This document shows positions 4,592 to 59,622 of a stretch of DNA of 64,000 nt, in pieces (positions within the stretch are counted from its first letter, which is position 1; every line of letters starts with the position of its first letter). The stretch covers positions 3,410,001 to 3,474,000 of the forward strand of contig NZ_AP024237.1 of assembly GCF_016592155.1 (NCBI RefSeq), written 5' to 3'. The DNA comes from Mycobacterium heckeshornense. GTDB taxonomy: Bacteria > Actinomycetota > Actinomycetes > Mycobacteriales > Mycobacteriaceae. The translations under genes were made by a program, and so were the position numbers. The notes under the pieces were generated by a model, which saw nothing but the letters and a program-made list of their open reading frames with translations, made no database searches and was not told the DNA's origin.

Positions 4592-4657
4592 CCCCTGGGC
4601 AGTTCGAAGCCTACGGCCAACGGCAACGACCACCCTGCAAGAAAGGTAAGGATGCCC

Positions 4658-17968: not shown

Positions 17969-18034
17969 CGGTTTCCTTACCTTTCTTGCAGGGTGGTCGT
18001 TGCCGTTGGCCGTAGGCTTCGAACTGCCCAGGGG

Positions 18035-18165: not shown

Positions 18166-18207
18166 TCGTCTGCTGGGTCGATTGTTACGGCGATTACGGA
18201 GGTGGTT

Positions 18208-19407: not shown

Positions 19408-19437
19408 CAACTTCATTGAGAATCTCCTTTGGTGGTT

Positions 19438-27563: not shown

Positions 27564-28433
27564 GCTATCTCCTCTCGATGGAGCCCAGCCTTTTGTTCGG
27601 GTTGTGAACGCGCTCAGGGCGAGGGCCACCGCGCGCTCAACTGTCCATAACCGGTCCGCAGCATCCTCAAACACCGACGGTCGAGGTTCCGTGCCAAACA
27701 GATCTCCGCGGTAAGCGCCCCGGCGTGGTCTCCGGACAAACGGTGATCACTCCCCAAAGCCGCCGCCGGGAGACGCGACCGTCACCGGTGCACCGGAACC
27801 TCCGCCGAGCCGACTGGCTGCGAAGTCCGCTCCCTTGTCGATGACGCCACCGTCTTGGGCGTATGCGTCGTGCGCGGCGAAATTCATCCCGTCAGAGCAC
27901 ACCGGATCCTCGGGAGCGCACACCTTTATGGTCTTGCCCTGAAACGCCGGGCCGATGACGACGGGCGGTTGGCCGAGGAAGTTCATGGCCCGCACGTTCG
28001 GCATGCCGAACAAGACGACCGCGGCGACGTGGTCAGCCACGCTGGGCGCCAGCGGTTTCGGCACGGTCGCCGGATCGACGCCATCGGGCACAGCCGGCGA
28101 GGTGGTGAAGCCCATCACCGCGGCGCCTTGGGAATAACCGCTGAGCACCATCTTGGTCTGCGGGCAGTTCGCCGCCATGGAGACAACGTGGGCGCCGGCG
28201 TCTCTGATGCCGTCGAGACCCGATGTGGCCCAATCGTCGCTGGCGGGGTAGTTGACCGGGTACACGTCGAGCGGCCTTCCGACACGGGAATTGAGAGCGT
28301 TGACGAAGGCCTCGCCGGTGGGACCGAGACCAGGAGGCTCGCCGGTGCCGCGGGCGAATACCACTTGTGTATCGGGGCATGGCTGTGCCGACGCGGATGG
28401 AGCGGACACAGCGGAAAGGGCGTATGCGCTAAG

Positions 28434-30117: not shown

Positions 30118-30182
30118 CTAAGGCCCGCCGCGGCGGCTGCCAGCGCGTAACCCGGGAAACGAAGCGGGGGACGTACATTCAT

Positions 30183-45724: not shown

Positions 45725-46518
45725 TGCGCGCTCCTCTTCTGGCGCGACGGAACCCGACCCAGCGCGAGCAGGATGCCGTGCAACACACTGAATGGCGAGG
45801 CCGGCGCGCCGGGCACCCACACGTCGACAGGCACCAGGTCGGAGACTCCGGTACCGCCGATGTATCCACCGCCGAGGACCCCTCCGCTGATGGCATCGGT
45901 ACCCACGGCGATGACCACGGTGGGTGCGGGCATCGCGTCGAGCGTGCGGCGCAGCGGCTCGACCATCCCGGACACACCGATGCCTGTCACCAGCAAGATG
46001 TCGGCATGACGAGGGCTGGCGGTGAAGAAGATTCCGAGGCGGTGCACGTCGTAGACCGGGTTGGTCAGCGCCTGGATCTCCCATTCGTCGCTGCCGTTGG
46101 ACCCGGCGTCGACGTGACGAATATGCACCGAGCGCCGCAGCCTGCGCACCCGGCGGGCCAGGCTCGCGCGCAGCTCGCCGAGTGCCTCGTCGCTTTCGTC
46201 GACTTCTCCCACCACCAGCGCTGACCGAGTCAGTTGTGCGGTGGCGCAGCCTTTTTCCCAGGCAAACCAGGCAGGGGCCAGGTTGACGCAACGCCCGCAC
46301 ATTATGCAGCGGCCCCGGTCCAGCCTTGGTCGTGGTTGCACCGAGATCGCATCGGTCGGACATGCGGCGGCCGCCCGGGCAACCTCGTCCGGCACCGTCG
46401 CGGCCGGATCGCCCACCACGCCCACCGCAGCCGGGAATTGGTCGAAGTACCCGTCTGCCTGCTTGGGCCATCGAGTGGTGACGACTCCGTCGCGTAATCC
46501 TCTGAACACCCACGGCAT
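45721..46518 (-). CDS. Ferredoxin-NuoB/HycG-like fusion lacking the proximal-cluster cysteines
   Basis: A 265-residue protein with two domains. Residues 40-90 form a ferredoxin-like unit whose ACPTDAI and CIMCGRC Cys can bind one 4Fe-4S cluster. Residues 140-260 match NuoB/HycG (ALTNPVYDVHRLGIFFTASP, HADILLVTG, VPVDVWVPG). The cluster ligands of that domain are gone: GSNGSDEWEI where a GxCxGC-type motif is normal, GTDAISGG for GxCAxxGG, VPGAPASP for VPGCPPxP. It resembles Rv0082 in position within such clusters. Electron transfer through this domain by the usual cluster is not possible. Confidence 0.85.
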   Translation of the reverse strand: MPWVFRGLRDGVVTTRWPKQADGYFDQFPAAVGVVGDPAATVPDEVARAAAACPTDAISVQPRPRLDRGRCIMCGRCVNLAPAWFAWEKGCATAQLTRSALVVGEVDESDEALGELRASLARRVRRLRRSVHIRHVDAGSNGSDEWEIQALTNPVYDVHRLGIFFTASPRHADILLVTGIGVSGMVEPLRRTLDAMPAPTVVIAVGTDAISGGVLGGGYIGGTGVSDLVPVDVWVPGAPASPFSVLHGILLALGRVPSRQKRSAQ

Positions 46519-48039
46519 CTACATCGCCACCCCGGCATAGCACAGGCCGAAACTTGCTTCGATAAATGGAAAGTCGGTGAAAACATCGCCGCCGAACACG
46601 TCGTGGAAAAGCAGCATGTTGTGTAGCGATGCTGTGCGCGCAAAACAACGCCGGATCACCCCGTCGCGCACCTCGAGGCCGTAGAGCACCTCGCCCTGCG
46701 GCGCCTCGGCCCAGCCCAGTGCGAAGCCGTCGACGGTTGGTACCGGTGTGGCGATCTGTGGGTCGGAAATTGTTTCGAGCGTTTCGCAGGCTCGCGCGAT
46801 GAGCCCAGCGGCAACGTCGATTTCAGTCCACCGCACCCGTAATCGCGCGAGCGCGTCACCGCGGTCGTCGACCGCGGCCGCGTCGATGGGCGGAAGTTCG
46901 GTGTAGCCGTCGTAGGTACGGCGGCGAGCATCGTCGTCGCAACCGGACCCGCGGCCCACCGGGCCCACCGCGCCGTGCGAGCGGGCCAGCATCGGGTCGA
47001 GATGTCCCGTGCCCCTTAGCCGGTCGAGGAAAGATGCGTCCACCATCAACGCGTCCCGATCGCCGCGGATGCGGCGAAGGAGGGCACCGACGTGTTCGGA
47101 GATCGCAGCCGGCGTCAATCGCGGCTCGGCGTTGACGCCGCCGGGGCAGACGACCGAGCGGCCAAACCTGTTGCCGCACAGCGCCGAGACCAGTCGCAGC
47201 ACCCGCTCCTTGTGCCAGCCGAACCTCGCGGTCGGTACGGCGATCCCGGCCGCATCGCAGAGTCGCATCACCACGTCGAGGTGGTTGGCGATGCGCTCCA
47301 GCTCGGCATGGATCACTCGTGTCATACGTGCGCGCGGCGGCGGGGTCACATCAGCGAGCGTCTCGACGGCGTGGGCGAACGCCAGCGCGTGGGCGATCGA
47401 CGCGACGCCCTCCACCCGTTCGGCGACCAAGATCCCGTCGGTCACCGGCAGCGATTCGAACCGCTTGGCGATACCGCGATGCTTGTAGTACGGCCGAATG
47501 TTCAGATGCGGGATGTCCTCGCCGGGCGTTTCGATGAGGAATTCGATCGATTCGAACACCCCTGAGCGCACCGGGCCGAGCGGTAGCGTGAACACGCCGC
47601 CACCCCTGACGTCGACGGGCCCATGCTGCTCTGCCGCACGGGAGTGGACATGCCCTTCCAGTGTCGCCTGTTCGGTGTGCCCGGGGCGTGGTGTGGGTTG
47701 GCCGGGTTCGCGGGGCAGCAGCAGCGGGTCGAGCCGCGGATGCCCGATCGGGACCACACCGGACAGATCGTGCAGCGCGCGTTCATACCAAAACGCCGCG
47801 GGCACATCGGGTGTCAGCGAAGGGTAGGACAACGAGCCGTCTGTCTGCGGTGACAGCTCGGTCCGCAGGCAGGCCAGCGAGGCAGCGCCGACGAGCAAGG
47901 CGTGCAGTTGCGCCACATCGCCGCGATGGGTGCTGTAGACCCCGGCGAATCGCTCACCCCGCGCGACGAGATCGACGACCCGCGTGCGCCATTCATCCAG
48001 GACCAGGTCAATGACTGTGGTGGTCGTCGTGGTGTTCAC
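46519..48039 (-). CDS. HycE/NuoCD-like large subunit lacking the NiFe ligands
   Basis: A 506-residue protein. The N-terminal 150 residues are NuoC-like; the rest is the NuoD/HycE fold (HLNIRPYYKHRGIAKRFE, RMTRVIHAELERIANHLDVV). In NiFe hydrogenases the L1 motif is RxCGxC; here it reads ERVEGVAS. The C-terminal L2 DPCxxC is replaced by FIEASFGLCYAGV. All four metal-binding Cys are missing, so no NiFe centre can form. The GTG start overlaps the hycQ-like stop, and the stop abuts the next gene. Confidence 0.9.
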   Translation of the reverse strand: MNTTTTTTVIDLVLDEWRTRVVDLVARGERFAGVYSTHRGDVAQLHALLVGAASLACLRTELSPQTDGSLSYPSLTPDVPAAFWYERALHDLSGVVPIGHPRLDPLLLPREPGQPTPRPGHTEQATLEGHVHSRAAEQHGPVDVRGGGVFTLPLGPVRSGVFESIEFLIETPGEDIPHLNIRPYYKHRGIAKRFESLPVTDGILVAERVEGVASIAHALAFAHAVETLADVTPPPRARMTRVIHAELERIANHLDVVMRLCDAAGIAVPTARFGWHKERVLRLVSALCGNRFGRSVVCPGGVNAEPRLTPAAISEHVGALLRRIRGDRDALMVDASFLDRLRGTGHLDPMLARSHGAVGPVGRGSGCDDDARRRTYDGYTELPPIDAAAVDDRGDALARLRVRWTEIDVAAGLIARACETLETISDPQIATPVPTVDGFALGWAEAPQGEVLYGLEVRDGVIRRCFARTASLHNMLLFHDVFGGDVFTDFPFIEASFGLCYAGVAM

Positions 48040-49547
48040 CGCACACCTGCCCCGAGTTCAGCGGCGCCGCGGTTGAGCAGGTCGACCAGATCCGACGGCG
48101 GTGCCAACCCCAACACCACGAGGACCAACACGCCCACCACCACCGGTGCCACCATCCATCGGCTGGGTTCACCGCGACGCAATGGCGCCTGGCCGGTGGC
48201 CGATGCCTCCGGCGCAGGCCCGAACAAGATCTGCGTCGTCGCCAGCGTCAGGCCGAGGAACGCCAGATTGACCAGGATGACCAGCGCGACCGTGGCGATG
48301 TTGCGGCTCTGCGTGAAGCCGCCGGCAACGATCTGGAATTCGCTGCGAAACAAGCCGAATGGCGGCATCGCTGACAATGCCAGAACGGCAATTAAGAACA
48401 TCGGCCCCGACCACGGTAGCAGCGCGATGCCCTGTGTCATCCGGCCGAGCTCCTTGGTGCCGAACTTGCGCACGAGCACACCGGCGCCCATGAACGCGTT
48501 GGCCTTGGCGGCGGCGTGCGCGAGGACATGCAACAGCACCCCGGAAAACGCGATCGGTGCCCCGAAGCTGACACCGATCGCAATGATGCCCATATGTTCG
48601 ACGCTCGAATAGGCAAGCAGCCGTTTGATATCCCGCTGCTCGAGCAGATACAGCGCTGCCAGGAGCAGTGACAGCACGCCGAAGACCATCAAAACGGTTT
48701 GCGGGAACCGTGATCCCAGCGCTGCCGTGGCGATCTGGTAGTAACGCAGGATCGCGTAGAAGCTAACCGCCAGCAGCGATCCCGACAGCAGCGCCGAAAC
48801 CGGTGTGGGTGCCTCGGCGTGGGCATCCGGAAGCCAGGTATGCACCGGAAACAGACCGACCTTTGTGCCGAACCCCACCACGGCCAGGACGAACGCCAAT
48901 CGTACTGGGGTGGCGGGTAGTTGACTGCCGGCAGCGACCAACGGGTCGAGCGCCAGGTCGTAGGACTCGCCGAGCACCTGTGCACCTGAGTAGTACATGA
49001 AAATAGTTGCCAGCAGTGCGATTCCCAGTCCGGAGGAAGCGATCAGCACATACTTCCATGCGGCCTCGGTGGCCCCCTCTGTGTTATCCAGTGCCACCAG
49101 CAGCGCCGACACCACCGTGGTGATTTCGACGGCGATCCACAGTACGGTCAAGCTGTTCACCAGCGGCGCACAGATCATCGACCAAGCAAACGCATTCAGC
49201 CCAAGGAAAAAACGAGTGCTGTAGCGAGCGAATAGCTCCTGCTCTTCGGCGGTGTCGGAACGCACGGCCCGCTCCTCGTCCGCGAAATAGCCGATGGAGT
49301 AGACCCCTACGGTCGCATACAGAAAACAGGTGCCCAACAAAAAGATCACCGATAGCGCGTCTGCACGCAGGTAGTGCCCCGCACTGATGGTGCCCTCGAG
49401 GCTTTGCGGCACCAACGCGGCCGCGAGCAGCAGGGCAACGATCCCGGTCAGCGCAGTCGTCGCCGCGGCGACCCGATGCGGCGCCCGGACACAGACGAGC
49501 ATGCTGACCAGTGGCAAGGCAACGAGCAACACCATCAAAGCGGACAT
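48036..49547 (-). CDS. HycQ/HyfF-like proton-translocating membrane subunit
   Basis: A 503-residue NuoN/NuoL-type protein with about 14 hydrophobic segments. SLTVLWIAVEITTVVSALLV holds the conserved Glu, KVGLFPVHTWLPDAHAEAPT the Lys/His, and KRLLAYSSVEHMGIIAIG the second Lys. Homolog of Rv0086. A second pump-type subunit beside HyfB implies that the complex can move several protons or other cations. Confidence 0.92.
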   Translation of the reverse strand: MSALMVLLVALPLVSMLVCVRAPHRVAAATTALTGIVALLLAAALVPQSLEGTISAGHYLRADALSVIFLLGTCFLYATVGVYSIGYFADEERAVRSDTAEEQELFARYSTRFFLGLNAFAWSMICAPLVNSLTVLWIAVEITTVVSALLVALDNTEGATEAAWKYVLIASSGLGIALLATIFMYYSGAQVLGESYDLALDPLVAAGSQLPATPVRLAFVLAVVGFGTKVGLFPVHTWLPDAHAEAPTPVSALLSGSLLAVSFYAILRYYQIATAALGSRFPQTVLMVFGVLSLLLAALYLLEQRDIKRLLAYSSVEHMGIIAIGVSFGAPIAFSGVLLHVLAHAAAKANAFMGAGVLVRKFGTKELGRMTQGIALLPWSGPMFLIAVLALSAMPPFGLFRSEFQIVAGGFTQSRNIATVALVILVNLAFLGLTLATTQILFGPAPEASATGQAPLRRGEPSRWMVAPVVVGVLVLVVLGLAPPSDLVDLLNRGAAELGAGVR

Positions 49548-49550: not shown

Positions 49551-50231
49551 CTACCCCCTGAGCCGGTCGAGGGTCTCGGTGGATAGTGACAAGGTCCGCC
49601 GTTGATGGGTGCGTATCAGCACTCCGAACACCACCACGGCTACCAGCAGATCGAACAGGAAGGCCACCTCCAGGATCAACGGCATCCCGGCAGCGACCAC
49701 CAGACTGGCCAGCGACGCGCCGTTTTCCAGGGAGAAGAATCCAATGGCCTGGCTGACGACGTCGCGGCGAACGATCATCAAGACGAACGCGACCAGCACC
49801 ACCGCCACCGACAGGCTCAGCGCAGTCGTGGGCAGCACCTCGGAATGGATGCCGAGCACGCCGACCGCGAAAAACCCGGACGCGCCAATGCCGATCGAGA
49901 TCAGCACTTGGCCTGCAACTCCGACCACGCCACTGCCGGCAATCTCCTCAGGGGCTTCTCGAAGCAGACGCAACACCAGCAGCGGCACAACGATCACCTT
50001 GAGCAAGAACGATAGGAGGGCCAGCGCGTACAACTCGGGAACGTGATGATGGAAGGCCACGACGGCGGCCAGCACGCTGACAGCCAGGGACTGTCCTGTG
50101 TACAGCCGTACTTGGCCACGCAGCAGCGCCTGCCGCAACATCCCGAATTCCAGTAGCAGCACGATCAGCGCGACCGTATTCGCGGTTCCGTCGTAGACGG
50201 TGGGCACGAACTGGTTACCCGCTAACGCCAT
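49551..50231 (-). CDS. HycP/HyfE-like membrane subunit
   Basis: A 226-residue membrane protein with about seven hydrophobic segments, homologous to Rv0085 and HyfE (NuoK-like in its first half). DVVSQAIGFFSLENGASLAS is the conserved segment. It starts one base into the hycD-like stop and ends 3 bp before the hycQ-like gene. Confidence 0.85.
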   Translation of the reverse strand: MALAGNQFVPTVYDGTANTVALIVLLLEFGMLRQALLRGQVRLYTGQSLAVSVLAAVVAFHHHVPELYALALLSFLLKVIVVPLLVLRLLREAPEEIAGSGVVGVAGQVLISIGIGASGFFAVGVLGIHSEVLPTTALSLSVAVVLVAFVLMIVRRDVVSQAIGFFSLENGASLASLVVAAGMPLILEVAFLFDLLVAVVVFGVLIRTHQRRTLSLSTETLDRLRG

Positions 50232-51190
50232 CAGCCGCCTCCTAGGTAGAGGGTGAAGACCGCGAGGACGGCGAGCAGTAATGCGGCCGCGACGAATTCG
50301 GTGATCTTATAGAGCCGCAGTTTGGCGTAGCTGTTATCCAGCACCGCGATCACGCAGCCCAGTAGGACAGCCTTACCCACAATGGCGAGGATCGCCAACC
50401 CAACCTCCATCGGCGAGGGGCCCTCGGCCATCCCCCATGGGGCGACGAAGACATTGAGCAAAATGATGTACAGCACGAACTGTTTGGCCGCCGACCCCCA
50501 GTGCAGCAGGGCCAGGTCTGGCCCGGAATACTCGAATGTGCGGCCGGTTTCAATCATTCCAAATTCGATTGTGCCGGTGTGTGTTTCGACAGGGATCCGC
50601 GCAGTCTCATAAAGAATCACCATGAACAGCGCGGCTGAGGCGAGCAGGTGCGCGGGCCGCACAATCTGATCGGGTCCGCTGCGGACCGTCGCACCCAGCA
50701 CATACGGCAGGTCGGTGGTGGTGATCATCGCGACCGTGAAAACGACCAACAGCATGACCGGCTCGGTGATCGCAGCGAATGTCTTGGCCCGGCTGGAAGC
50801 CAATTGTGCGTATGCGTCACCGGTTTCGGCTGCGCCGACGGCGACCAGGAAGCTCGCAAACGCGAGAATCAATCCCCCACCGAGGATGTCACCCATGTAT
50901 CCCAGTGGCAGCGCGTAACTGGTGAGCACCGGAATCAACATCGGAACGGTCAGGTAGCAAGCAAAAGATGCGACCGGCGCCAGGCGAAAGAAGGGACCCG
51001 CGCCGTTTGGTGTCAGCGACTCTTTGCCGAAGAGCTTGACTAAGTCGAAGTAGGGCTGCAATATCCGTGGACCGCGGCGGCCCTGCAACCGCGCTTCCAA
51101 CCAGGAGATGAAGCCGCTAATGCCTGGCGCACCAGCAGCAACGGTCACCACCTGCAAACCCTGGATCAGTGGGAGCGGCAACGCTGTCAT
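50231..51190 (-). CDS. HycD/HyfC-like (NuoH-type) membrane subunit
   Basis: A 319-residue membrane protein with about eight helices. WLEARLQGRRGPRILQPYFD and LVKLFGKESLTPNGAG match the NuoH/HycD N-terminal loop, and ETHTGTIEFGMIETGRTFEYSG, split over a membrane edge, the conserved acidic loop that couples to the soluble subunits. Overlaps the Nudix stop by ATGA. First Hyc-like gene of the operon. Confidence 0.92.
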   Translation of the reverse strand: MTALPLPLIQGLQVVTVAAGAPGISGFISWLEARLQGRRGPRILQPYFDLVKLFGKESLTPNGAGPFFRLAPVASFACYLTVPMLIPVLTSYALPLGYMGDILGGGLILAFASFLVAVGAAETGDAYAQLASSRAKTFAAITEPVMLLVVFTVAMITTTDLPYVLGATVRSGPDQIVRPAHLLASAALFMVILYETARIPVETHTGTIEFGMIETGRTFEYSGPDLALLHWGSAAKQFVLYIILLNVFVAPWGMAEGPSPMEVGLAILAIVGKAVLLGCVIAVLDNSYAKLRLYKITEFVAAALLLAVLAVFTLYLGGG

Positions 51191-51567
51191 CGATCACCCG
51201 GTTCCGGGCGCCACAGGTTGCCGACGTAGCGGGCGTATCCACCGCGGCGCAGGTCCGGCTCGCGGGCAGCGGGCGTGGCAGCAGTGTCGAAGTCCTCCGC
51301 GATGAAGACCAGCTCGACAATCCGCCGATGCGCGACGGGGTCATTGACTACGAGGACGAGGGCACACCTGTTGGGGTACACGTCAAGACCGGTCTCCTCG
51401 CGTGTCTCCCGCCGCGCGCCGGATGCCATGCCTTCGTGCGGGTGCGGGCGCCCGCCGGGCAGCACCCAATCGCCGCGGTCGGGACGCTGCAGCAGCAGCA
51501 CCGCATCGCCGCGGACCACCGCCACCGCGCAACGCAATTCGACCAATGACTCGTCCACGGAAATCAT
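51187..51567 (-). CDS. Nudix hydrolase, first gene after the fluoride riboswitch
   Basis: A 126-residue Nudix protein with the box GRPHPHEGMASGARRETREE continuing TGL (GX5EX7REUXEEXGU). The family hydrolyses nucleoside diphosphates linked to another moiety; the substrate here is unknown. The frame is open to 51690, but that ATG lies inside the riboswitch aptamer, so I place the start at ATG 51567 (MISVDESLVELRCAV), just after a CCGCC/GGCGG hairpin and AAGG. Its stop overlaps hycD, so it belongs to the same transcript. Confidence 0.87.
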   Translation of the reverse strand: MISVDESLVELRCAVAVVRGDAVLLLQRPDRGDWVLPGGRPHPHEGMASGARRETREETGLDVYPNRCALVLVVNDPVAHRRIVELVFIAEDFDTAATPAAREPDLRRGGYARYVGNLWRPEPGDR

Positions 51568-51633
51568 CGCCTTACCGCCGTGGACATCGACCGGCGGTGA
51601 AAATGAGCACACGCCACCTACGACCCCTTTGTT

Positions 51634-51696
51634 CGTAGAAGCCATCAGCCTTGTGGCGGTTCGGAAGTCATGCTTCCGGACGGGCTCCATCGCCGG
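51634..51696 (-). promoter_or_regulatory. Fluoride riboswitch (crcB motif) before the Nudix-Hyc operon
   Basis: Read on the minus strand: P1 GGCG/CGUC around the loop AUGGAGCC, a side hairpin CGGAAG-CAUGA-CUUCCG (51662-51678), then ACCGCC, GGCUGAUGGCUUCUACG. GGAGCC of the loop pairs with GGCUUC, the aptamer pseudoknot. These are the conserved elements of the structurally solved Thermotoga aptamer (GGCGAUGAGGCC...GGCUGAUGGCCUCUAC). Downstream CUACG can instead pair with CGUAG, a plausible switch. The extra side hairpin is unusual. Confidence 0.88.
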
Positions 51697-51699
51697 TGC

Positions 51700-51729
51700 A
51701 AGTTAACCAATGGCAACGCCGTGGGTCAA
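51700..51729 (-). promoter_or_regulatory. Sigma-A-like promoter of the Nudix-Hyc operon
   Basis: Minus strand TTGACC (51724-51729), 18 bp, TAACTT (51700-51705, TANNNT type). The predicted start about 51693-51694 coincides with the first G of the aptamer stem. Confidence 0.65.
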
Positions 51730-51785
51730 GCCGAGCGTGATCGCTGCGTGATCCCATGATGCGGGCGATCGCCGACAGCGAACGG

Positions 51786-52094
51786 TCAGGACCGATCTCG
51801 AGTGTGCAGATAGGTCACGAGCACGTCTTCAGCCCGGTGATATTGCAGTGAATCCACCCACAGGCGCCGGATTGCCGCCTGCCCGGGCCGCCAACGACCA
51901 CCCGGGGTAGCCACGTAACCGCCAATACCGGCCCCGGCGAGCAAACTAAGCACGGGGTCGATATCGTCGGGCCCAAGGTCGGCGAGCTCCGCCCATGCGC
52001 TGGCAAAGACGCCGTTGTCGGTGCCGCCCGGTGGTAGCCAGAACATGACATCGAGCCGAGTGGGATTTCTGATTGGGCGAATCGGGGAACTCAC
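51786..52094 (-). CDS. Conserved-looking hypothetical protein
   Basis: A 102-residue protein. AGGAG lies 5 nt before GTG 52094 and fixes the start. WLPPGGTDNGVFASAWAELA and DDIDPVLSLLAGAGIGGYVA are well-formed coding sequence; a Trp/Arg-rich patch RWRPGQAAIRRLWVD follows. No signal peptide or membrane helix. I do not recognise the family. It lies between two fluoride riboswitches but is transcribed away from the one at 52270 and is upstream of the promoter of the one at 51696. Confidence 0.6.
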   Translation of the reverse strand: MSSPIRPIRNPTRLDVMFWLPPGGTDNGVFASAWAELADLGPDDIDPVLSLLAGAGIGGYVATPGGRWRPGQAAIRRLWVDSLQYHRAEDVLVTYLHTRDRS

Positions 52095-52232
52095 GACGGC
52101 TCCTGCGCTGTTGTCGTCAACATCCGTCTTCCCTGGTAGGACATTCAGGGACTGTCGGCGCCGTCCGCGGTTACGGCGAGCCCCACCACCGGGTTCCATC
52201 ATCGCGCGCCGGCGTGGCGCGCGTGTCTTCAC

Positions 52233-52262
52233 TTGCACGTCCGGTTAACCGTGAGCTAACAT
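52233..52262 (+). promoter_or_regulatory. Sigma-A-like promoter of the second fluoride riboswitch
   Basis: TTGCAC (52233-52238), 18 bp, TAACAT (52257-52262). The predicted start at 52269-52270 is the first base of the aptamer, the same geometry as at 51700-51729. Confidence 0.6.
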
Positions 52263-52269
52263 CGCGGAC

Positions 52270-52318
52270 AGGCGATGAGGCTCGCCTTGAACTGCCACAC
52301 CGGCTAATGGCTTCTACC
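52270..52318 (+). promoter_or_regulatory. Fluoride riboswitch (crcB motif) pointing toward the PE/PPE pair
   Basis: P1 AGGCG/CGCCU encloses AUGAGGCU; then AACUGCC, GGCUAAUGGCUUCUACC. GAGGC of the loop pairs with GCUUC downstream, with one G-U pair. Compared with the copy at 56489, the loop differs (GAGGC versus GAAGC) but pairing is kept. CUUCUACCC can alternatively pair with GGG-TCGA-GUAGAAG at 52332-52345, disrupting the pseudoknot. The gene originally controlled is unclear; IS1380 copy B is now 360 bp downstream. Confidence 0.87.
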
Positions 52319-52360
52319 CGTGACTGACCAAGGGTCGAGTAGAAGTTAGGTGAGCGGCTG

Positions 52361-52627
52361 GTGGCATTCCTTGTTCAGGTCCTACTGTGGTGTTTCCGAT
52401 GTGCCGGTGGCACTCGGCGGATAGGCGGAATCGGGCTGTGTGAACGTCCGTTACCCGCACCCGATTACACCGTAATGCACGTGCGGCAGGTGCTCGGCCG
52501 ACCGCGGCGACGCACTGCGGTGCATGCGGCACAAGCCCAATCGACGCTTCGTAAGTGCTTCTGCCACAGCGTGTTTGTAGGCAACGCCGCGCACAGAACC
52601 ATAGAGGCTCGGGGGAGTCCTCCGTAG
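52361..52627 (+). CDS. Doubtful small frame directly after the riboswitch
   Basis: An 88-codon frame from GTG 52361 with AGGTGAG about 7 nt upstream, directly downstream of the switch hairpin. The product starts hydrophobic (AFLVQVLLWCF) and is Cys/Arg-rich with no family resemblance, and third-position GC is lower than in neighbours. It is not a Fluc/CrcB channel. It may be a remnant, a leader peptide or chance. The rest of 52319-52672 shows nothing better. Confidence 0.25.
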   Translation: MAFLVQVLLWCFRCAGGTRRIGGIGLCERPLPAPDYTVMHVRQVLGRPRRRTAVHAAQAQSTLRKCFCHSVFVGNAAHRTIEARGSPP

Positions 52628-52677
52628 CACGGCGCTCTGCATCACCCTCACCCGCCGGTCCTCGGCATATCTCTAAG

Positions 52678-54361
52678 CCTGAATCCGTGGAAGGTCGGTC
52701 TTTGGTGATCGGCGTGTGAACAGTGAAAACGCCTTCCGAGCTGGGACAATAACGATTGTCGAAGTCGAAACAGTCCCTGCTCGGGAAGGCATTTCCAGTG
52801 CAATCAGCATACACGTTTAGCACCGAGTCCGCCGTGTTCGACGAGCAGAATTTGGTGTCGGCGGCGGGTTTGGTGCCGGTGCTGGAATTGGCTGAGCAGA
52901 GCGGTCTTTCGCGGTTGATCGGCGAGCACATCGATCTGCCCAGCACCCGGGTGGCCTCGGGCGCGGTCAATGCGGCCGGCAAGCTGACCACGATCATCGC
53001 GGGCATGATGTGCGGGGCGGACAGCATCGACGATGTGAATGTGCTGCGCGCCGGCGGCACGCCGCGGGTCTTCGATGAGGTGTATGCGCCCTCGACGCTG
53101 GGGATCTTCCTGCGCGAGTTCAGCTTCGGGCATTCCAACCAGCTCGCCGCGGTGGCCCGCGAGCATCTGGTGGCACTCGCGGCGCACACCCCGCTTTTGC
53201 CCGGCATCGAGCAGCGCGCGTTTTTAGACATCGACTCGCTGCTGCGCCCGGTCTACGGACACCACAAGCAGGGCGCCTCGTTCGGGCACGCCAAGATCGC
53301 CAGCCGCGCGCTGCTGCGATTGGGCCTTTCACCGCAGATCACCACGCTGTCGACCGCGCAGGCGCCGCCGGTGATTGCCGAGGCGCGGCTACGCAGCGGG
53401 CGGGCCGGCTCCGGGCGTGCGGCGGCCCGCCAAGTCAAGCAGGCCATCACCACCGCCCGCCGGTGCGGCGCGGGCACCATCATGCTGCGCGGCGACTCGG
53501 CGTTCGGCACCAAGAAGGTGATGGCCACCTGCGTTGCCGAAGGTATCGAATTCTCCGTGTCGGTGGCCCGAAACAAGCGCATCAGCACCGCCATCGCCGG
53601 CATCGGCGAGCACGCCTACACCCCGGTGCACTACCCGGGCGCGGTGGCTGACCCCGACACCGGCGCGCTGATCTCTGATGCCCAGGTCGCCGAAACGCCC
53701 TACACGCTGCGCCTGGGCGGCGGGCGCACGCTCACCGTCCGGCTGATCGTGCGCCGTGTCAAAGATGCCCGCTACCCCGACGCGCTGTTTGCGGTGTGGC
53801 GCTATCACCCATTTGTGACCAACTCCGATTTGCCCACCGCCCAGGCCGACATCACCCACCGCCGCCATGCCATCATCGAGACCACCTTCGCCGACCTCAT
53901 CGACGGCCCATTGGCTCATATCCCCTCTGGGCTGTTTGCAGCCAATTGCGCCTGGCTGGCCTGCACGGTGATCGCGCACAACCTGCTACGCGCCACCGGC
54001 ACCCTCGCCAGCGGTGAGCACGTCGTCGCGCGCGGTGCGACCCTGCGCCGCGACCTGGTCAACATCCCAGCCCGCTTCGCCGCGCCCGCCCGTAAGCCGA
54101 TGTTGCACCTGCCCGCGCACTGGCCATGGCAGATCGGGTGGAAAACCCTGTGGAACAACATCATCGGTCACAGTCCGGCGATCCCACGAGCAGGGTGAAC
54201 GCCACCTCCCGTGCCCAACTGCCATCCCAGGCCCGACCCCGAAGACACAGGAAAGCTGGTGCAGGCCAGCGGCTCAATTATGCCCACCCCATTCCCAACC
54301 GCCCCAATCGTGCAGAAACCAGCCCCGCGACGACACCAAATCACTCATCCACGGATTCAGG
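52678..54361 (+). mobile_element. IS1380-family element, copy B (1684 bp)
   Basis: Same sequence and length as copy A. 14-bp inverted ends at 52678-52691 and 54348-54361; CTAAG duplications at 52673-52677 and 54362-54366. The empty site reads CTAAG-GGAGGTAGAGCC-ATG, so the element landed directly in front of the Shine-Dalgarno of the PE gene, cutting it off from upstream promoters including the fluoride-riboswitch promoter. Confidence 0.93.
52798..54198 (+). CDS. IS1380-family DDE transposase (copy B)
   Basis: The 466-residue product is identical to copy A (motifs LDIDSLLRPV, LRGDSAFG, IIETTFADL). GTG start as argued for copy A. Transcribed toward the PE/PPE genes, so read-through from the element could express them. 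Confidence 0.92.
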   Translation: MQSAYTFSTESAVFDEQNLVSAAGLVPVLELAEQSGLSRLIGEHIDLPSTRVASGAVNAAGKLTTIIAGMMCGADSIDDVNVLRAGGTPRVFDEVYAPSTLGIFLREFSFGHSNQLAAVAREHLVALAAHTPLLPGIEQRAFLDIDSLLRPVYGHHKQGASFGHAKIASRALLRLGLSPQITTLSTAQAPPVIAEARLRSGRAGSGRAAARQVKQAITTARRCGAGTIMLRGDSAFGTKKVMATCVAEGIEFSVSVARNKRISTAIAGIGEHAYTPVHYPGAVADPDTGALISDAQVAETPYTLRLGGGRTLTVRLIVRRVKDARYPDALFAVWRYHPFVTNSDLPTAQADITHRRHAIIETTFADLIDGPLAHIPSGLFAANCAWLACTVIAHNLLRATGTLASGEHVVARGATLRRDLVNIPARFAAPARKPMLHLPAHWPWQIGWKTLWNNIIGHSPAIPRAG

Positions 54362-54378
54362 CTAAGGGAGGTAGAGCC

Positions 54379-54678
54379 ATGTCTTTTGTCACCACACAGC
54401 CGGAAATGCTGGCTGCTGCGGCCGCCGATTTCCGGGGAATCGGCACGGCGATGGCCGCCCACAACGCGGCTGCGGCCGCGCCCACGACCGGGGTAATCCC
54501 CGCCGCCGCCGATGAGGTCTCGGCGCTCACCGCAATGCAATTCGCCATGCACGCCCAGATGTATCAGGCTGTCGCCACCCAAGCCGAGACCATTCACGAG
54601 CTGTTCGCGACCACGCTTAATACCAGTGCCGCATCGTATGCGGCCACCGAGGCTGCTAACGCCATCGCGGCCAGGTGA
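54379..54678 (+). CDS. PE family protein
   Basis: A 99-residue PE domain protein with no extension: [20 protein letters not shown] at the start, [17 protein letters not shown] in the middle, [13 protein letters not shown] at the end. GGAGG lies 8 nt upstream of ATG 54379. It forms a helical-hairpin pair with the PPE protein encoded 10 bp downstream, and such pairs are exported by ESX systems. In M. tuberculosis some PE/PPE pairs act in outer-membrane solute uptake. Confidence 0.93.
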
Positions 54679-54688
54679 GAGGTGCGGC

Positions 54689-56035
54689 ATGGACTTTGGG
54701 GCGTTACCGCCGGAGATCAACTCCGGCAGAATGTATAGCGGCCCGGGGTCGGGGCCGATGCTGGCTGCCGCGGCCGCCTGGGATGCGCTGGCCGCCAACC
54801 TGCACTCTGCCGCGGACGCACATGGCGCGGTAGTCGCGGGGCTGACCGGCGGGCCCTGGCTGGGCCCGGCCTCGGCGTCGATGGCCGCTGCGGCCGCACC
54901 CTACGCGGCGTGGTTGACCGCCACGGCCACCCAGGCGGAACAAGTCGCCACCCAGGCCAAGGCTGCCGTGGTCGCCTACGAGGCAGCGTTTGCGATGACC
55001 GTGCCCCCGCCGGTGATCGAGGCCAACCGCAGCCTGCTGATGTCGCTGATCGCGACCAACTTCCTGGGTCAAAACACCCCGGCGATCGCGGCCACGGAAG
55101 CCCAGTACCTACAGATGTGGGCCCAGGATGCCGCCGCGATGTACGGGTATGCCGCCGCTTCGGCGCACGCTGCGACGCTGACGCCGTTCGCCCCGCCGCC
55201 GATCACCACGAACCCGGCCGGGTTAGGCGCCCAGGCCGCTGCGGTCGGCCACCCGGTCGGCACGTCGTCCGCGGCCCACGCGTCGTCGCTCATGTCGGCC
55301 GTGTCCGGGGCGTTGCAGAGTCTCGCAGCGCCCACAGCGGCCGACCCGCCGTCAGCGCCGTCGCCACTGTCGTTGCTGTCGTTGCTGTCGATCCCCAGTG
55401 CCACCGCGTCCACGACCAGCACTGCCGCGTCGTCGACGAGCGCGCCGGCCTCTTTCCTGTCGACCGCGGTGGCGTCACGCAACATCGCGCTGCAGGAGCA
55501 GCGCGAAAGATCCGAGGCCGCCGAAGGCATCATCCGGGGCGGCGTGCCAGGCGGGCCGTTCCCGCCGCCCCCACCGCTTCCGGAGGGCCCGGCGGGGGCC
55601 GGCTTCAAGACCACACCGCCGGTATCGGCCAGCATTGGCCAGGCGTCTTCGCTCGGAGCGCTGTCCGTGCCGCGGGGCTGGGCCACTGCGGCCCCCGCGA
55701 TACGCGCCGCCGCCTTGGCGCTGCCATTCACCAGCACCGCCGCCGCTTCGGCGGTGATGGCCCCGGAAGGCATAGTCAGCGGCACGGCCCTGGCCGGTAT
55801 GGCCGGGAGCGCCATCGGCAACACCGTCAGCCCTGCCCGCCAGCAGCGTGCGCCTACGATGGCGCCTGCAACGCGTGTGGAGCCACAAACGCCGGGCAAT
55901 CCCGCGACGGCGATCTCTGCCGAACTACGGGACCTCGCCCTTGCCGTCTTGCGCGAATCTGGAGATCTCACCGACGAAGAATTCACCGAGAAACAACGTC
56001 TTTCCGGTGTCACAACGCCGCGCCGTCAGCTATGA
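54689..56035 (+). CDS. PPE-SVP protein with a SHOCT-like C-terminal tail
   Basis: A 448-residue PPE protein. The PPE domain ([31 protein letters not shown]) is followed by a Ser/Ala-rich linker, a poly-Pro stretch [11 protein letters not shown] and the SVP signature [10 protein letters not shown]. The last 45 residues differ from the usual PPE tail: [20 protein letters not shown] with EFTEKQRL resembles a SHOCT motif. ATG 54689 is set by the conserved N-terminus; the frame is open upstream. Partner of the PE protein. Confidence 0.92.
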
Positions 56036-56083
56036 CGACGCGCCACGAATTCGATGAGCAACAAAACCTAATTAAGGAGAATG

Positions 56084-56416
56084 ATGTTCCGAACACTAAC
56101 TCTCACAAGTGGACTCGCCGTCGCCGGTGTTTGTCTGGCAGCGCCCGCCAGCCCCGACCACGCTGGATATCTCGCACGACTGGACAGAAACCACGTGAGC
56201 TACGTGTCGCAACCCGACGCCGTGCATTGGGGCGCCTCGGCGTGCGACGAGCTGCGCAACGGGGCCGATGTCCCAGCGGTGGTCTCGACACTGAAGAACA
56301 ACGGCGGCTTCACCACTCGTGATGCCGGGGCGATCATCGGGGCAGCGACCAGCGAACTATGCCCTGACCAACATCAGACGGCGATGCAATGGGCCTACGG
56401 CCAAACTGCCAGCTAG
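56084..56416 (+). CDS. DUF732-like small secreted protein
   Basis: A 110-residue protein with a signal peptide (MFRTLTLTSGLAVAGVCLAA) and a DUF732-type domain with two Cys (SACDELRNGADVPAVV, ELCPDQ) and the usual YLARLDRNHVSY start. AAGGAG (56074-56079) is 4 nt before ATG 56084, so I prefer it to the ATG at 56081. The role of the family is unknown. It may be cotranscribed with PE/PPE (49-bp gap). Confidence 0.82.
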   Translation: MFRTLTLTSGLAVAGVCLAAPASPDHAGYLARLDRNHVSYVSQPDAVHWGASACDELRNGADVPAVVSTLKNNGGFTTRDAGAIIGAATSELCPDQHQTAMQWAYGQTAS

Positions 56417-56451
56417 TGGCTCGGCACACCCGACGACCCGCCAACTGTCGA

Positions 56452-56482
56452 TTGGCACGGCGAAACCGGCGCCGGGTAGCAT
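56452..56482 (+). promoter_or_regulatory. Sigma-A-like promoter of the MutS-like operon
   Basis: TTGGCA (56452-56457), 19 bp, TAGCAT (56477-56482). The predicted start at 56489 is the first base of the aptamer, as at the other two riboswitches. Confidence 0.55.
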
Positions 56483-56488
56483 CAAGCC

Positions 56489-56537
56489 AGGCGATGAAGC
56501 TCGCCTCGACCGCCACCCCAGGCTGATGGCTTCTACC
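56489..56537 (+). promoter_or_regulatory. Fluoride riboswitch (crcB motif) before the MutS-like genes
   Basis: P1 AGGCG/CGCCU encloses AUGAAGCU; then GACCGCC, GGCUGAUGGCUUCUACC. Loop GAAGC pairs perfectly with GCUUC. The Shine-Dalgarno GGAGG (56550-56554) is only 12 nt downstream. CACG-GATA-CGTG lies between aptamer and Shine-Dalgarno and could hide the latter, so translational control is likely. Confidence 0.88.
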
Positions 56538-56563
56538 ACGGATACGTGCGGAGGTCAGTGCCA

Positions 56564-58096
56564 ATGGCGGGCTTTACCAGCATCCTTTCCCCTTATCCCG
56601 ATGCGGTCGTCGCTAGCGACGTGGCTCCGAGTTGCTTTTTCGATCTGCACCTCGACGACATCATCGCCGCGGTAACCGGCGGCCACTCCGACGATCGTCT
56701 GGAGAACTTCTTTTACGCCCCGTTGCGCGACGTTTCCGCAGTCGACTACCGCCATCGGGTATTCCGCGATCTCGACCGCGACCAGACGCGACGGGCTATC
56801 CAAAACTTCGTCGACGGCATGCGCACGATGCGGCGCCGTCTCGACCGGGCCCAGCACCTGTGGCATCCACTGCAACGGCAAGGCTGGTTTGTCGACGCAG
56901 TCGAAGCCTACCGCGCCGCGGTGGAATCGCTGCGGGACGATCTGACCCGGGCCGAGCCGGCTTCTCCCGGACTGCGCGCCTTCGCCGACCATGTGAACCA
57001 GTACGTCGACAGCGACGCCTTCAAAGCACTGGTGGCTGACACCCAATCGGTACGAGCCGAGTTACGCAACGTTCGTTACACCGTGCACATCCAGGGCTTG
57101 CGGGTGCATGTCGACAAATTCGAGGGCCAAAGCGACTACAGCAATGCAGTACTCGCAACCTTCGACCGGTTCGCCACCGAGGCAACCAAGGACTATCGTG
57201 TGCCGCTCAAGGACTTTCCCGACATGAACCACGTCGAGGAGCAGATCCTCGAATGCGTCGCCGAACTCTATCCGGATGTCTTCGCACTGCTCGACGAATA
57301 CTGCCGGCGCAATCAGCACTTCGTCGAACGCACCATCGCTCGCTTCGACCGTGAAATCCGCTTTTATCTGGCCTATTTGGCCTTCGTGCACCGCTTCACC
57401 GCGGCCGGGCTTGCTTTCACTTTTCCGGAAGTCACCACAGATACCACCGCGGTCGATGTGGACGACGCCTTCGACCTGGCACTGGCGATCAAGTCGGTTG
57501 AGGAAGACAAACCCGTCGTATGTAACGGCTTTCGCCTGTCGGGACCCGAACGCATTTTCGTAGTGACGGGTCCCAACCAGGGCGGCAAGACAACGTTCGC
57601 CAGAACAATCGGGCAGTGCGCCTATCTGGCCGCACTGGGCTGTCCGATACCCGCAAGACGGGCCAAGCTCATGCTGCCCGACCACATCTACACCCACTTC
57701 GAGCGACAGGAGTCTTTGTCGAGCTTGCATGGAAAGCTCGACGACGAGCTGGTGCGAATTCACGACATCCTTTGCCGCGCCACGAAGTCGAGCATCGTCA
57801 TCATGAACGAAAGCTTCTCGTCCACCACCGCCGACGACGCACTGCTGATCGGCACCGAAGTTCTCCAACGCATCATCAAGCTGGGCTGCGTGGCCGTCTA
57901 TGTCACCTTCTTCGACGAACTGTCCACCCTCGGTCCGGCATGCGCCAGCATGGTCGGTGAAGTCGCGCACGACGACCCGACCCGTCGGACTTTCAAGTTC
58001 ACCCGGCGGCCGGCGGACGGCCTGGCCTACGCCGCGGCGTTAGCCGATAAATACGCACTGAACCCTGAGGTACTGCGACAAAGGATCGGGCGATGA
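56564..58096 (+). CDS. MutS-like ATPase, first of a pair
   Basis: A 510-residue protein with the clamp/lever helical region (about 1-330) and the MutS ATPase domain. Walker A is VTGPNQGGKTTFAR (MutS: TGPNMGGKST). The Walker B region SIVIMNESFSSTTADDA has Asn in place of the Asp before the catalytic Glu. The mismatch-recognition domain I of MutS1 (Phe-x-Glu) and the MutS2 Smr nuclease are absent, so it is neither a mismatch-repair MutS nor MutS2. Starts at ATG 56564 with GGAGG 9 nt upstream and overlaps the second gene by ATGA. Confidence 0.87.
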   Translation: MAGFTSILSPYPDAVVASDVAPSCFFDLHLDDIIAAVTGGHSDDRLENFFYAPLRDVSAVDYRHRVFRDLDRDQTRRAIQNFVDGMRTMRRRLDRAQHLWHPLQRQGWFVDAVEAYRAAVESLRDDLTRAEPASPGLRAFADHVNQYVDSDAFKALVADTQSVRAELRNVRYTVHIQGLRVHVDKFEGQSDYSNAVLATFDRFATEATKDYRVPLKDFPDMNHVEEQILECVAELYPDVFALLDEYCRRNQHFVERTIARFDREIRFYLAYLAFVHRFTAAGLAFTFPEVTTDTTAVDVDDAFDLALAIKSVEEDKPVVCNGFRLSGPERIFVVTGPNQGGKTTFARTIGQCAYLAALGCPIPARRAKLMLPDHIYTHFERQESLSSLHGKLDDELVRIHDILCRATKSSIVIMNESFSSTTADDALLIGTEVLQRIIKLGCVAVYVTFFDELSTLGPACASMVGEVAHDDPTRRTFKFTRRPADGLAYAAALADKYALNPEVLRQRIGR

Positions 58097-59622
58097 GAGT
58101 TCGTCTGCTGCATCCCGAATGTGATCCCGAACTCAAACCGACGCTGCCGTGGCAGTTGCAGGACATCATCGACGACGACCTCGAGCTGCGGCGGGTCTAC
58201 GAAGCCATGGCGGGTGGTGACGAGTTTCTGCTCGAAACCGCAAAGCGGGTGGTGCCGCTGGGCGTCGCCGACCCGGACGTCATCGTCTACCGCCAACGGG
58301 TGTTGGCCGACTGTCTCGCCAACCGTCCTGTGGTGCAGCAGATATATGACATCGCGGTGGACGGCGCCGAAGTGCGGCGCAAGGTTTTTCTCGGCGGGTT
58401 GATGTCTCGCAATCCCGAGTCAATCCTGCGCCGCTCGGTCCGTGTCCTCGAACTGCTCACCGAGAACCTCAAACAGCTACGCAGCGTCTGCGATGAGCAC
58501 GGTAGCCAGTTCCGCTCCGCAGGCTTTCGGCAGTTGGTGGCGATGATCGCCGAACAGCTTTCCGATGACTACCTGCGCCGCCTCGACGAGCACCTCAGCG
58601 AGTTAGCGCTGCCTCGCGGCGTTTTGCTCAGCGCTCAGCTGGGGCTCGGCAACAAAGGCGAACGCTACATGCTTCACCAACCGCCCCGGCGGAGCTGGTG
58701 GGAACGGTTGACCGGAAACCGCAGCGACACATGCGGGTTCACGGTGGACGAGCGCGACGACGCGGGCGCGCAGGCCCTCACCGAATTGGCCGGGCGTGCC
58801 ATCAACGACGTCGCCAACGTCGTCACTCAATCCGCTGACCACGTCCAGGGATTCTTCGAGCGATTGCGTACCGAGGTCGGCTTCTACCTCGGGTGCCTGA
58901 ACCTGCGCGATGAGCTCACCAAGTTCGGTGTCCCGACGTGTTTTCCGATGCCAACACCGGCCGATGTGCAAGAGCTTCAGTGTCGCGATCTGCGGGATGT
59001 GGGGCTGTGTCTGACCACCGTCAAGAAGGTCGTCGGCAACGACATCGACGCCGGCGGCAAGTCGCTGATCGTGATCACCGGCGCAAACGAAGGTGGCAAG
59101 TCCACGTTTTTGCGCAGTGTGGGCGCGGCCCAGGTGATGATGCAGGCCGGTATGTTCGTCACCGCTCAATCGTTTCGCGCCAATGTCCGCGACGGCGTGT
59201 TCACGCATTTCAAACGCGAAGAAGACGTCACCCTGACGCGCGGCAAGCTTGACGAGGAACTCGCCCGGATGAGTGAGATCGCCGAGTACATCAGGCCGAC
59301 ATCGTTGTTGTTGTGTAACGAATCCTTTGCCTCGACCAATGAACGCGAGGGTTCGCAAATCGCCCGCGGAATCGTTTACGCCATGGTGGACGGCGGCGTC
59401 AAAGTCGTGTTCGTCACCCATCTCTACGACCTCGCCCACAGCCTGTACATACGCCATAACCCGGCGGACTTGTTCTTGCGCGCCCAGCGCCGACCCGATG
59501 GTGTACGCACCTTCCGGCTACTGCCCGGAGAGCCCAAACCGACGAGCCACGGCGAGGACTCGTTCCACCGGATCTTCGGCGTGCCCGCCTGCGCCAGTCA
59601 GAAGGGTGTTGAAACTGGTTGA
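58093..59622 (+). CDS. MutS-like ATPase, second of a pair
   Basis: A 509-residue paralogue of the preceding protein: Walker A VITGANEGGKSTFLRS, Walker B-like TSLLLCNESFASTNEREG again with Asn-Glu, and FVTHLYDLAH as the following His-containing motif. Domain I and Smr are also missing. Translation is coupled to the first gene, so the two probably form a heterodimer, as MutS-type ATPases need two subunits for composite active sites. No Cas, nuclease or methylase gene is adjacent. Confidence 0.87.
   Translation: MRVRLLHPECDPELKPTLPWQLQDIIDDDLELRRVYEAMAGGDEFLLETAKRVVPLGVADPDVIVYRQRVLADCLANRPVVQQIYDIAVDGAEVRRKVFLGGLMSRNPESILRRSVRVLELLTENLKQLRSVCDEHGSQFRSAGFRQLVAMIAEQLSDDYLRRLDEHLSELALPRGVLLSAQLGLGNKGERYMLHQPPRRSWWERLTGNRSDTCGFTVDERDDAGAQALTELAGRAINDVANVVTQSADHVQGFFERLRTEVGFYLGCLNLRDELTKFGVPTCFPMPTPADVQELQCRDLRDVGLCLTTVKKVVGNDIDAGGKSLIVITGANEGGKSTFLRSVGAAQVMMQAGMFVTAQSFRANVRDGVFTHFKREEDVTLTRGKLDEELARMSEIAEYIRPTSLLLCNESFASTNEREGSQIARGIVYAMVDGGVKVVFVTHLYDLAHSLYIRHNPADLFLRAQRRPDGVRTFRLLPGEPKPTSHGEDSFHRIFGVPACASQKGVETG

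Follow-up and report, generated by a model that had tools for sequence, protein, structure and literature searches.

We analysed a stretch of 64,000 nucleotides (nt) of the Mycobacterium heckeshornense genome (contig NZ_AP024237.1, positions 3,410,001 to 3,474,000, forward strand; hereafter the window), in which four predicted fluoride riboswitch aptamers lie among a complex I-like operon with a leading Nudix hydrolase gene, a gene for a small protein, a PE/PPE pair and a pair of MutS-like ATPase genes. The reading that we favour, with a probability of roughly 0.78, is that this locus is a fluoride-response regulon organised as a chromosomal island, with translational ON switches and an ion-moving, redox-silent complex. 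The features are listed here in window coordinates; scores refer to the Rfam family RF01734 and to R1, a covariance model trained on 41 aligned aptamers from other genomes and on zero window sequences.

51629..51703, minus strand: aptamer 1 (RF01734 44.3 bits, E 5.1e-9; R1 50.6 bits), leader of the Nudix/complex I-like operon
52262..52323, plus strand: aptamer 2 (RF01734 49.1 bits, E 1.4e-10; R1 60.9 bits), which heads PE/PPE genes in relatives
56481..56542, plus strand: aptamer 3 (RF01734 40.9 bits, E 6.9e-8; R1 61.5 bits), leader of the MutS-like pair
52139..52199, minus strand: aptamer 4 (RF01734 19.3 bits; R1 37.9 bits, E 1e-12), leader of the small-protein gene
51187..51612, minus strand: Nudix hydrolase, first gene of the operon (Pfam NUDIX; GTG start used instead of that of a longer open reading frame [ORF], which would start inside aptamer 1)
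50231..51190, minus strand: HycD/NuoH-like membrane subunit (Pfam NADHdh)
49551..50231, minus strand: HyfE-like membrane subunit (no Pfam match; NCBIfam hydrogenase 4 membrane subunit, below its cut-off)
48036..49547, minus strand: HyfF-like antiporter-like subunit (Pfam Proton_antipo_M; core charged residues aligned)
46519..48039, minus strand: HycE-like subunit without N-terminal Ni-Fe cysteines (Pfam 49 kDa and 30 kDa; aligned to subunit 5 of formate hydrogenlyase [FHL])
45721..46518, minus strand: HycG/NuoB-like subunit without proximal-cluster cysteines (Pfam Oxidored_q6 and N-terminal Fer4_15; aligned to FHL subunit 7)
43697..45724, minus strand: HyfB-like antiporter-like subunit (gene call; Pfam Proton_antipo_M on the longer ORF; aligned to FHL subunit 3)
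52091..52123, minus strand: upstream ORF of 10 codons (MLTTTAQEPS and stop; same length in three relatives)
51786..52094, minus strand: small protein of 102 amino acids behind aptamer 4 (no Pfam match, as in a relative; five sequences aligned)
52664..54367, plus strand: insertion sequence lying downstream of aptamer 2 and ahead of the PE gene (with a transposase at 52798-54198, plus strand; Pfam DDE_Tnp_1_4)
54379..54678, plus strand: PE protein (Pfam PE)
54689..56035, plus strand: PPE protein of the PPE-SVP type (Pfam PPE and PPE-SVP)
56564..58096, plus strand: MutS-like ATPase 1 (Pfam MutS_V on the ORF from 56546; KamC-like; Walker A)
58093..59622, plus strand: MutS-like ATPase 2 (Pfam MutS_V; KamC-like; Walker A)

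An earlier note on this DNA had called three segments fluoride aptamers, and a cmscan run with Infernal over the whole window bears this out: aptamers 1, 2 and 3 all exceed the RF01734 gathering cut-off of 34 bits. The count was incomplete, as a fourth aptamer, divergent from aptamer 2, had been missed; it scores below the cut-off and appears in a relaxed scan. The training set of R1 includes homologues of this fourth aptamer from three other species (loci L042, L057 and L065) and none from the sister genome, and the best non-aptamer match of R1 in the window reaches 12.4 bits. A genome-wide search with RF01734 (4,957,188 bases, E <= 0.001, 150 of 808 first-look candidates scored) returned aptamers 1 to 3 as its sole matches, all inside 5 kb. 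With R1 over the whole genome (150 of 6133 candidates scored; matches of at least 30 bits are termed strong) the same four stand out. Every strong match of the genome thus lies inside 5 kb, and on this ground we reject chance matches. The fifth-best R1 match (G000:C1:3591761-3591857, minus strand, 22.3 bits) is the best outside the island and probably background. The position of aptamer 4 before the same small gene is kept in L036, L042, L057 and L065, and L034 carries a clear RF01734-type aptamer at that place. Variant aptamers with GGYGGTG and AGTCCC score under the Rfam cut-off.

The aptamer fold, made of two stems and a pseudoknot between the loop and the 3' strand, is maintained by compensatory change. 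Across the 41 aptamers from other genomes, 94.0% of the pair cells are standard, against 85.0% (standard deviation [SD] 0.8) in shuffled alignments, and 53 cells are changed on both sides, against 18.1 (SD 3.1). None of 500 shuffles reaches either value, a significance that is overstated because the aptamer sequences are related, and sliding the partner strand by 1-3 columns lowers pairing to 34-61%. For the pseudoknot, and for the promoter and platform counts below, we used a set of 69 aptamers (68 without window aptamer 4), made of the matches in the window, L033-L052 and L057-L071, some of them under the Rfam cut-off; it excludes L049:9258 (24.9 bits), L065, L067, the single-aptamer loci among L004-L032, and L059 and L060, which come from the same genomes as L043 and L033/L034. 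In this set, 313 of 345 pseudoknot cells pair in the correct register (shuffled 285.7, SD 3.2, maximum 296), and four other registers have no comparable excess. The pseudoknots of the window pair at five of five positions each: GGAGC (aptamer 1), GAGGC (aptamer 2) and GAAGC (aptamer 3) with GCTTC, as the earlier note had seen when it described a varying loop with a conserved pairing to the 3' strand, and GGGGC with GTCCC in aptamer 4.

Promoter elements lie at a preferred distance in front of most of these aptamers. Of the 68 aptamers, 43 have a TANNNT element with its end 5-9 nt ahead of the first aptamer G, against 0-3 in each of 14 other 5-nt bins (0-74 nt), and the spacing is 5, 8 and 7 nt for window aptamers 1, 2 and 3. 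Transcription is therefore expected to start at the aptamer or within a few bases of it. The claim that the predicted start is the first aptamer base holds as regards the boxes, but the predicted start falls within 1-2 bases of that position and not always exactly on it.

On the downstream side, the 3' strand that forms the pseudoknot can alternatively pair with a strand in the next 55 nt. The duplexes of 3' strands with their own downstream regions have a mean energy of -14.06 kcal/mol, against -11.63 (SD 0.28) when permuted, and the minimum of 10,000 permutations is -12.73. By eye, the downstream partner often contains a Shine-Dalgarno sequence of the GAAGG/GGAGG type in the MutS leaders, and it flanks the Shine-Dalgarno sequence and abuts the GTG start in the Nudix/HycD leaders. 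The predicted folds of window leaders 1-3, each folded alone, contain this hairpin between the 3' strand and the downstream strand. Since the 3' strand can pair at or near the ribosome-binding site, the window aptamers are probably translational ON switches. The leader of aptamer 4 has a further element, the 10-codon upstream ORF between aptamer and small gene, which is of equal length in L036, L042 and L057; its stop and the start codon of the 102-amino acid gene overlap by four bases.

The complex I-like operon encodes subunits of the HycD, HyfE, HyfF, HycE, HycG and HyfB types, and thus has the membrane arm (HycD, HyfE, HyfF and HyfB) expected of group 4 NiFe hydrogenases. In hydrogenases, the HycE and HycG cysteines discussed here are ligands of the Ni-Fe centre and of the proximal cluster. 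We took FHL (PDB 7z0s) as the reference structure for these columns. Its HycE motif RVCGIC reads RVEGVA in the window, and neither of the two N-terminal Ni-Fe cysteine columns has a Cys in any of the 21 HycE rows covering them, one column holding Glu and the other Ala, Ser or His. In the C-terminal CxxC, the second Cys is Gly in 21 of 21 rows and the first is Cys in 12 and Ser in 9. The HycG motif CGGCNGC reads AGSNGSD in the window; the residues at its three columns are Ala/Thr/Val, Asp/Asn and Asp/Glu, that at the GAC column is Asp in 19 of 21 rows and that at the PGC column Ala or Ser, and all five tested cysteine columns are non-Cys in every row (among the 21 rows, L059 and L060 repeat the genomes of other rows, L062 and L065 are partial and L070 is frameshifted). 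Hence, HycE does not have the full set of four Ni-Fe-ligating cysteines, and in the motif columns of HycG neither the proximal 4Fe-4S cysteines nor the ligands of cluster N2 of respiratory complex I are present. HycG keeps one N-terminal ferredoxin-like domain. Among the transmembrane (TM) residues with roles in the antiporter subunits of complex I (TM5 Glu, TM7 Lys, TM8 Lys and TM12 Glu), HyfF and HyfB both retain those aligned to TM5 Glu, TM7 Lys and TM12 Glu. Among named HycE homologues, that of Mycobacterium kyorinense is the nearest (84%), in a search that may omit records very near the window. The term formate-hydrogenlyase-like, used in the earlier note, fits the subunit types but not a hydrogenase, as the N-terminal Ni-Fe and proximal cysteines are gone.

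Both MutS-like proteins have a MutS domain V ATPase with Walker A; the best stretch of ATPase 1 covers only MutS positions 358-737 of 793, and its profile match includes no mismatch-recognition or connector domain. With a complex that has lost the hydrogenase ligands and MutS-like proteins without mismatch recognition, the labels 'FHL' and 'mutS' are therefore misleading. The predicted structure of the 102-amino acid protein (five sequences, mean pLDDT 72) has no Foldseek match at E <= 0.001. The window also holds a PE-domain gene followed by a PPE-domain gene. The earlier note had linked these to the island with a 'perhaps'; the pair is real by Pfam and the link is seen in relatives, but in this genome an insertion sequence now separates the pair from aptamer 2.

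The association between aptamer and complex I-like operon extends beyond this genome. A protein search with a HycE alignment, blind to the aptamers, gave 15 loci, of which 14 are assessable, L067 having no HycD in the DNA examined. An aptamer lies ahead of the operon in all 14, at 50-143 nt before HycD in nine and at 5-18 nt before a preceding Nudix gene in five; R1 alone detected three of these aptamers, the repeat genomes L059 and L060 are included, and the copies found through their aptamers (the window, L036, L038, L040, L042 and L047) are omitted from the count. In a sample of the phylum, a HycD-like protein at E <= 1e-60 occurs in 10 of 396 genomes. Of the nine others, at 38-61% identity, six carry an aptamer no more than about 0.4 kb upstream of HycD (three of these six, all from one genus, with a small ORF in between), one carries it before the preceding gene, and two show none within the DNA stretch examined. 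The N-terminal Ni-Fe pair is gone in 7 of 7 distant HycE copies, and two distant HycG copies are without the cysteines, as in the window.

Several aptamers per locus are also found elsewhere in the genus, where 44 of 248 sampled genomes have RF01734 matches at E <= 0.001, 31 of them over the gathering score. In the six genomes searched with R1, which were chosen for their aptamers, the strong matches number 4 here, 8 in the sister genome (G186), 6 in Mycobacterium sp. SM1 (G083), 10 in Mycobacterium sp. 141 (G063, two contigs) and 5 each in G022 and G117. The window and 33 further loci hold 98 matches of at least 30 bits, with 23 divergent pairs within 450 nt, 0 convergent pairs and 1 same-strand neighbour pair; these counts are descriptions and not rates, as the loci were chosen for their aptamers or operon and some are near relatives. 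Next-gene assignment was made for all but 12 of the 69 aptamers; that for L058:5591 is incorrect, as a gene call for a phosphatase extends over this aptamer. The genes they head are the Nudix/HycD operon, the MutS pair, PE or PPE genes, a histidine phosphatase, a universal stress protein, an EttA-like ABC-F protein, enolase, CrcB, an Sbt-like transporter and two small proteins without known family. They include fluoride-stress genes, such as CrcB (L046) and enolase (L033) in relatives. A PPE gene follows the aptamer at 26-27 nt in L046 and L062 and at 359 nt in L040, and a PE gene lies 158-362 nt downstream of one in L042, L043, L048, L050, L051 and L057. R1 gave further aptamers next to enolase (38-41.5 bits; L036 3529-3599, L038 3506-3575, L043 13168-13237 and L041 6757-6837) that the genus-wide Rfam search did not return; the one of L036 is in the R1 training set. 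Other mycobacteria share the same gene set with several aptamers, and other Actinomycetota have related loci; at the level of sequence this recurrence supports the dedicated fluoride-response island proposed in the earlier note.

The genome has neither of the known fluoride exporter families. PF02537 (Fluc/CrcB) and PF00654 (CLC) have 0 matches each, and a CrcB protein has none at E <= 1, so that the absence of a known fluoride channel gene, claimed before for the window, holds for the whole genome. CrcB occurs in 241 of 248 genus genomes; it is missing from seven, namely G083, five genomes of 1.9-3.3 Mb and the one studied here. In the sister genome a crcB pair lies between flanks that adjoin here, with about 0.8 kb replaced by 70 bases. 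CLC is present in 7 of 15 aptamer genomes, and G083 has two CLC genes and no CrcB. Among genus genomes with at least three aptamers, 2 of 7 are without CrcB, compared with 5 of the 241 others (Fisher p 0.013, post hoc and uncorrected for kinship). In the phylum sample CrcB is present in 3 of 10 genomes with the operon and in 213 of 386 others (p 0.20), being missing in 180 of 396, and CrcB absence as a general mark of the operon is therefore unsupported phylum-wide. The best CrcB match of G022 (L072) has one in-frame TAG.

Parts of this picture are known already, namely the aptamer class, its association with mutS and FHL genes (PMC2864571) and the multi-gene fluoride operon (PMC5533749). The earlier note had stated that early surveys found formate-hydrogenlyase-like and MutS-like genes with the crcB motif, correctly so, as mutS and formate hydrogen lyase have been in print among crcB-motif genes since 2010 (PMC2864571). 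Our aptamers agree with RF01734 in that three of four window copies pass the gathering score, two stems and a pseudoknot show covariation, and the gene kinds had been noted previously. They differ in the 4-10 strong copies per genome (six searched), the 23 divergent pairs among 98 matches, the GGYGGTG/AGTCCC variant under the cut-off and the predicted translational platforms. In Enterobacter cloacae FRM, one riboswitch drives a six-gene fluoride-resistance operon (PMC5533749) that likewise has a universal stress protein, enolase and CrcB under fluoride control. It also includes a phosphoglycerate mutase, and the phosphatase of the island, as a further similarity, belongs to the His_Phos_1 superfamily. 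Here, however, each unit has its own switch, with the complex I-like machine, the MutS pair and PE/PPE in addition. The set of membrane and peripheral subunit types is that of FHL/hydrogenase-4 (7z0s), in contrast to the lost N-terminal Ni-Fe and proximal-cluster cysteines. Riboswitch-controlled PE/PPE genes are known from M. tuberculosis, as Mbox-pe20 (PMC12810186) and B12-ppe2 (PMC11260477). As in the island, an ion or cofactor riboswitch lies upstream of PE/PPE, with a translational platform and a small upstream ORF, whose stop overlaps the next start in the ppe2 leader (PMC11260477). Both are OFF switches, whereas the island switches are of the fluoride aptamer class and predicted to be ON. 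The window ATPases share with KamC-type MutS-related ATPases a MutS core and ATPase without a mismatch-recognition domain, but they score 53-70 bits against a cut-off of 300. In the open-licence PMC literature, mostly titles and abstracts, we found no fluoride-controlled PE/PPE, multi-aptamer divergent island or loss of redox ligands, and the entries seen of the species list for fluoride riboswitches in PMC9495176 include no mycobacterium.

Under the regulon reading, transcription from most promoters would begin at the aptamer or immediately beside it. Fluoride, together with Mg2+, would bind and the pseudoknot between loop and 3' strand would form. Without fluoride, the 3' strand would pair with the downstream strand, within or beside which the Shine-Dalgarno sequence or start lies, and translation would be blocked. 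Each operon would thus have its own translational ON switch. In the aptamer 4 transcript, the first translated frame is probably the conserved 10-codon upstream ORF, with its stop overlapping the gene start. The island products would deal with fluoride stress, the largest being the complex I/hydrogenase-4-like membrane complex, which would move ions (H+, Na+ or possibly F-) and so restore cytoplasmic pH or export fluoride, neither making nor using hydrogen. Such a complex might aid survival of fluoride without a known exporter.

Several observations weigh against this reading, and some of them favour other explanations. Fluoride binding, switching and ion transport are predictions from sequence here. 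Twenty-five of 68 aptamers, and also window aptamer 4, have no TANNNT box at 5-9 nt. Among the 68 leaders, only 7 have their own downstream partner as the best or joint best and 18 have it in the top tenth, which is partly due to pairing between related leaders; several histidine phosphatase leaders (L034:488, L038:13578, L040 and L058:5591) are placed 42nd or worse among the 68. The folding program cannot show pseudoknots, and its folds therefore do not weigh the two states. One alternative is that the aptamers act on transcription, by intrinsic or Rho-dependent termination, instead of on translation initiation. Predicted terminators overlap many crcB RNAs (PMC2864571), and the mycobacterial Mbox couples translational control with Rho termination (PMC12810186). 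However, the Shine-Dalgarno sequence often lies within or beside the downstream strand, and by eye no T-run follows the leader hairpins, no dedicated terminator scan having been made. We consider purely transcriptional control rather unlikely; a combined mechanism of transcription and translation is possible. As for the complex, the homology to antiporters would not by itself prove ion transport, and TM8 Lys is replaced in both HyfF and HyfB. Three distant HycG copies, from two genera, keep two first-motif cysteines and L099 keeps one, in the GTD column; the loss of the proximal cluster thus appears complete in the main group and partial in the distant copies. The resemblance of the subunits to FHL speaks for a true formate hydrogenlyase or hydrogenase, whose fluoride control would reflect a shift to fermentation upon inhibition of enolase, and the partial retention tempers the evidence against it; PMC11139923 lists FHL among common fluoride-riboswitch enzymes and mentions anaerobic fermentation. 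With non-Cys residues at the N-terminal Ni-Fe columns throughout the main group and the distant HycE copies, and at all five HycG columns of the main group, we reject this function and regard the rival as very improbable. The same ligand loss makes the fermentation explanation of PMC11139923 unlikely to be right for this HycE/HycG family.

The state of the island in this genome also counts against the regulon reading. Two segments of the sister genome are missing here: one of 3.2 kb, which carries DUF190, enolase and a single aptamer, and one of 8.6 kb, which carries EttA and three aptamers. The island is thus shrinking, and an insertion sequence parts PE/PPE from its aptamer. Together with the crcB pair missing between kept flanks and the absence of CLC, this would fit a relic, in which fluoride tolerance is being lost and the remainder is residual. 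However, all four aptamers keep five-of-five pseudoknots, the operon frames are open, and in the seven genes compared the substitutions relative to the sister lie mostly at codon position 3 (15/8/70 in HyfB), a bias in the retained complex genes that argues against a dead relic; we hold this explanation to be unlikely. Less likely again is export of fluoride by the redox-silent complex I relative itself, in place of Fluc/CLC-F. The aptamer found ahead of the operon at all 14 assessable loci, this complete genome without CrcB and CLC, the genus-wide figures for CrcB (p 0.013) and three distant genomes of one genus with an aptamer-headed operon and likewise without CrcB and CLC would all suit it. 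Against it, the phylum-wide difference is not significant, CrcB is still present in five of the seven island genomes, the CrcB-less G083 has its two CLC genes, and the genus test has the limits given above. We know of no anion transport in the complex I/antiporter superfamily. An exporter is thus possible, and not supported. We give similarly long odds to a broader proposal, that the fluoride-controlled 'FHL' of Actinomycetota would be a redox-silent ion pump or antiporter, possibly a third kind of exporter, with conserved acidic residues (HycG Asp, HycE Glu) at the former ligand sites, and that the fluoride-induced PE/PPE of mycobacteria would provide passage across the outer membrane.

The regulon reading bears on a question that dates from the first survey, as the reason for crcB RNAs before 'formate hydrogen lyase' and mutS genes has been unclear since then (PMC2864571). 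Islands with multiple switches, in which each operon has its own sensor and the switches are often back to back, offer a natural system for fluoride dose-response. With four switches and neither known exporter family, how fluoride is removed or tolerated in this species becomes a directly testable question.

The window also carries traces of mobile elements. The insertion sequence that parts aptamer 2 from the PE gene has a 99.8% identical copy at 28419-30123. In the sister, an 80% identical one lies in the opposite orientation between the same two features (L036 14005-15707), which suggests independent insertions at one site. Matches to the Rfam family Ms_IGR-7 (RF02469), annotated as an 'sRNA', fall inside both window copies (28435-28553 and 52679-52797) and are therefore treated as part of the insertion sequence; the family may describe an insertion-sequence end rather than a free small RNA. 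A perfect inverted repeat of 1455 bases (3198-4652 and 17974-19428) is probably formed by two copies of another mobile element. Finally, the island PPE gene shares, at 54689-55207, 74% DNA identity over about 0.5 kb with window positions 4798-5316.

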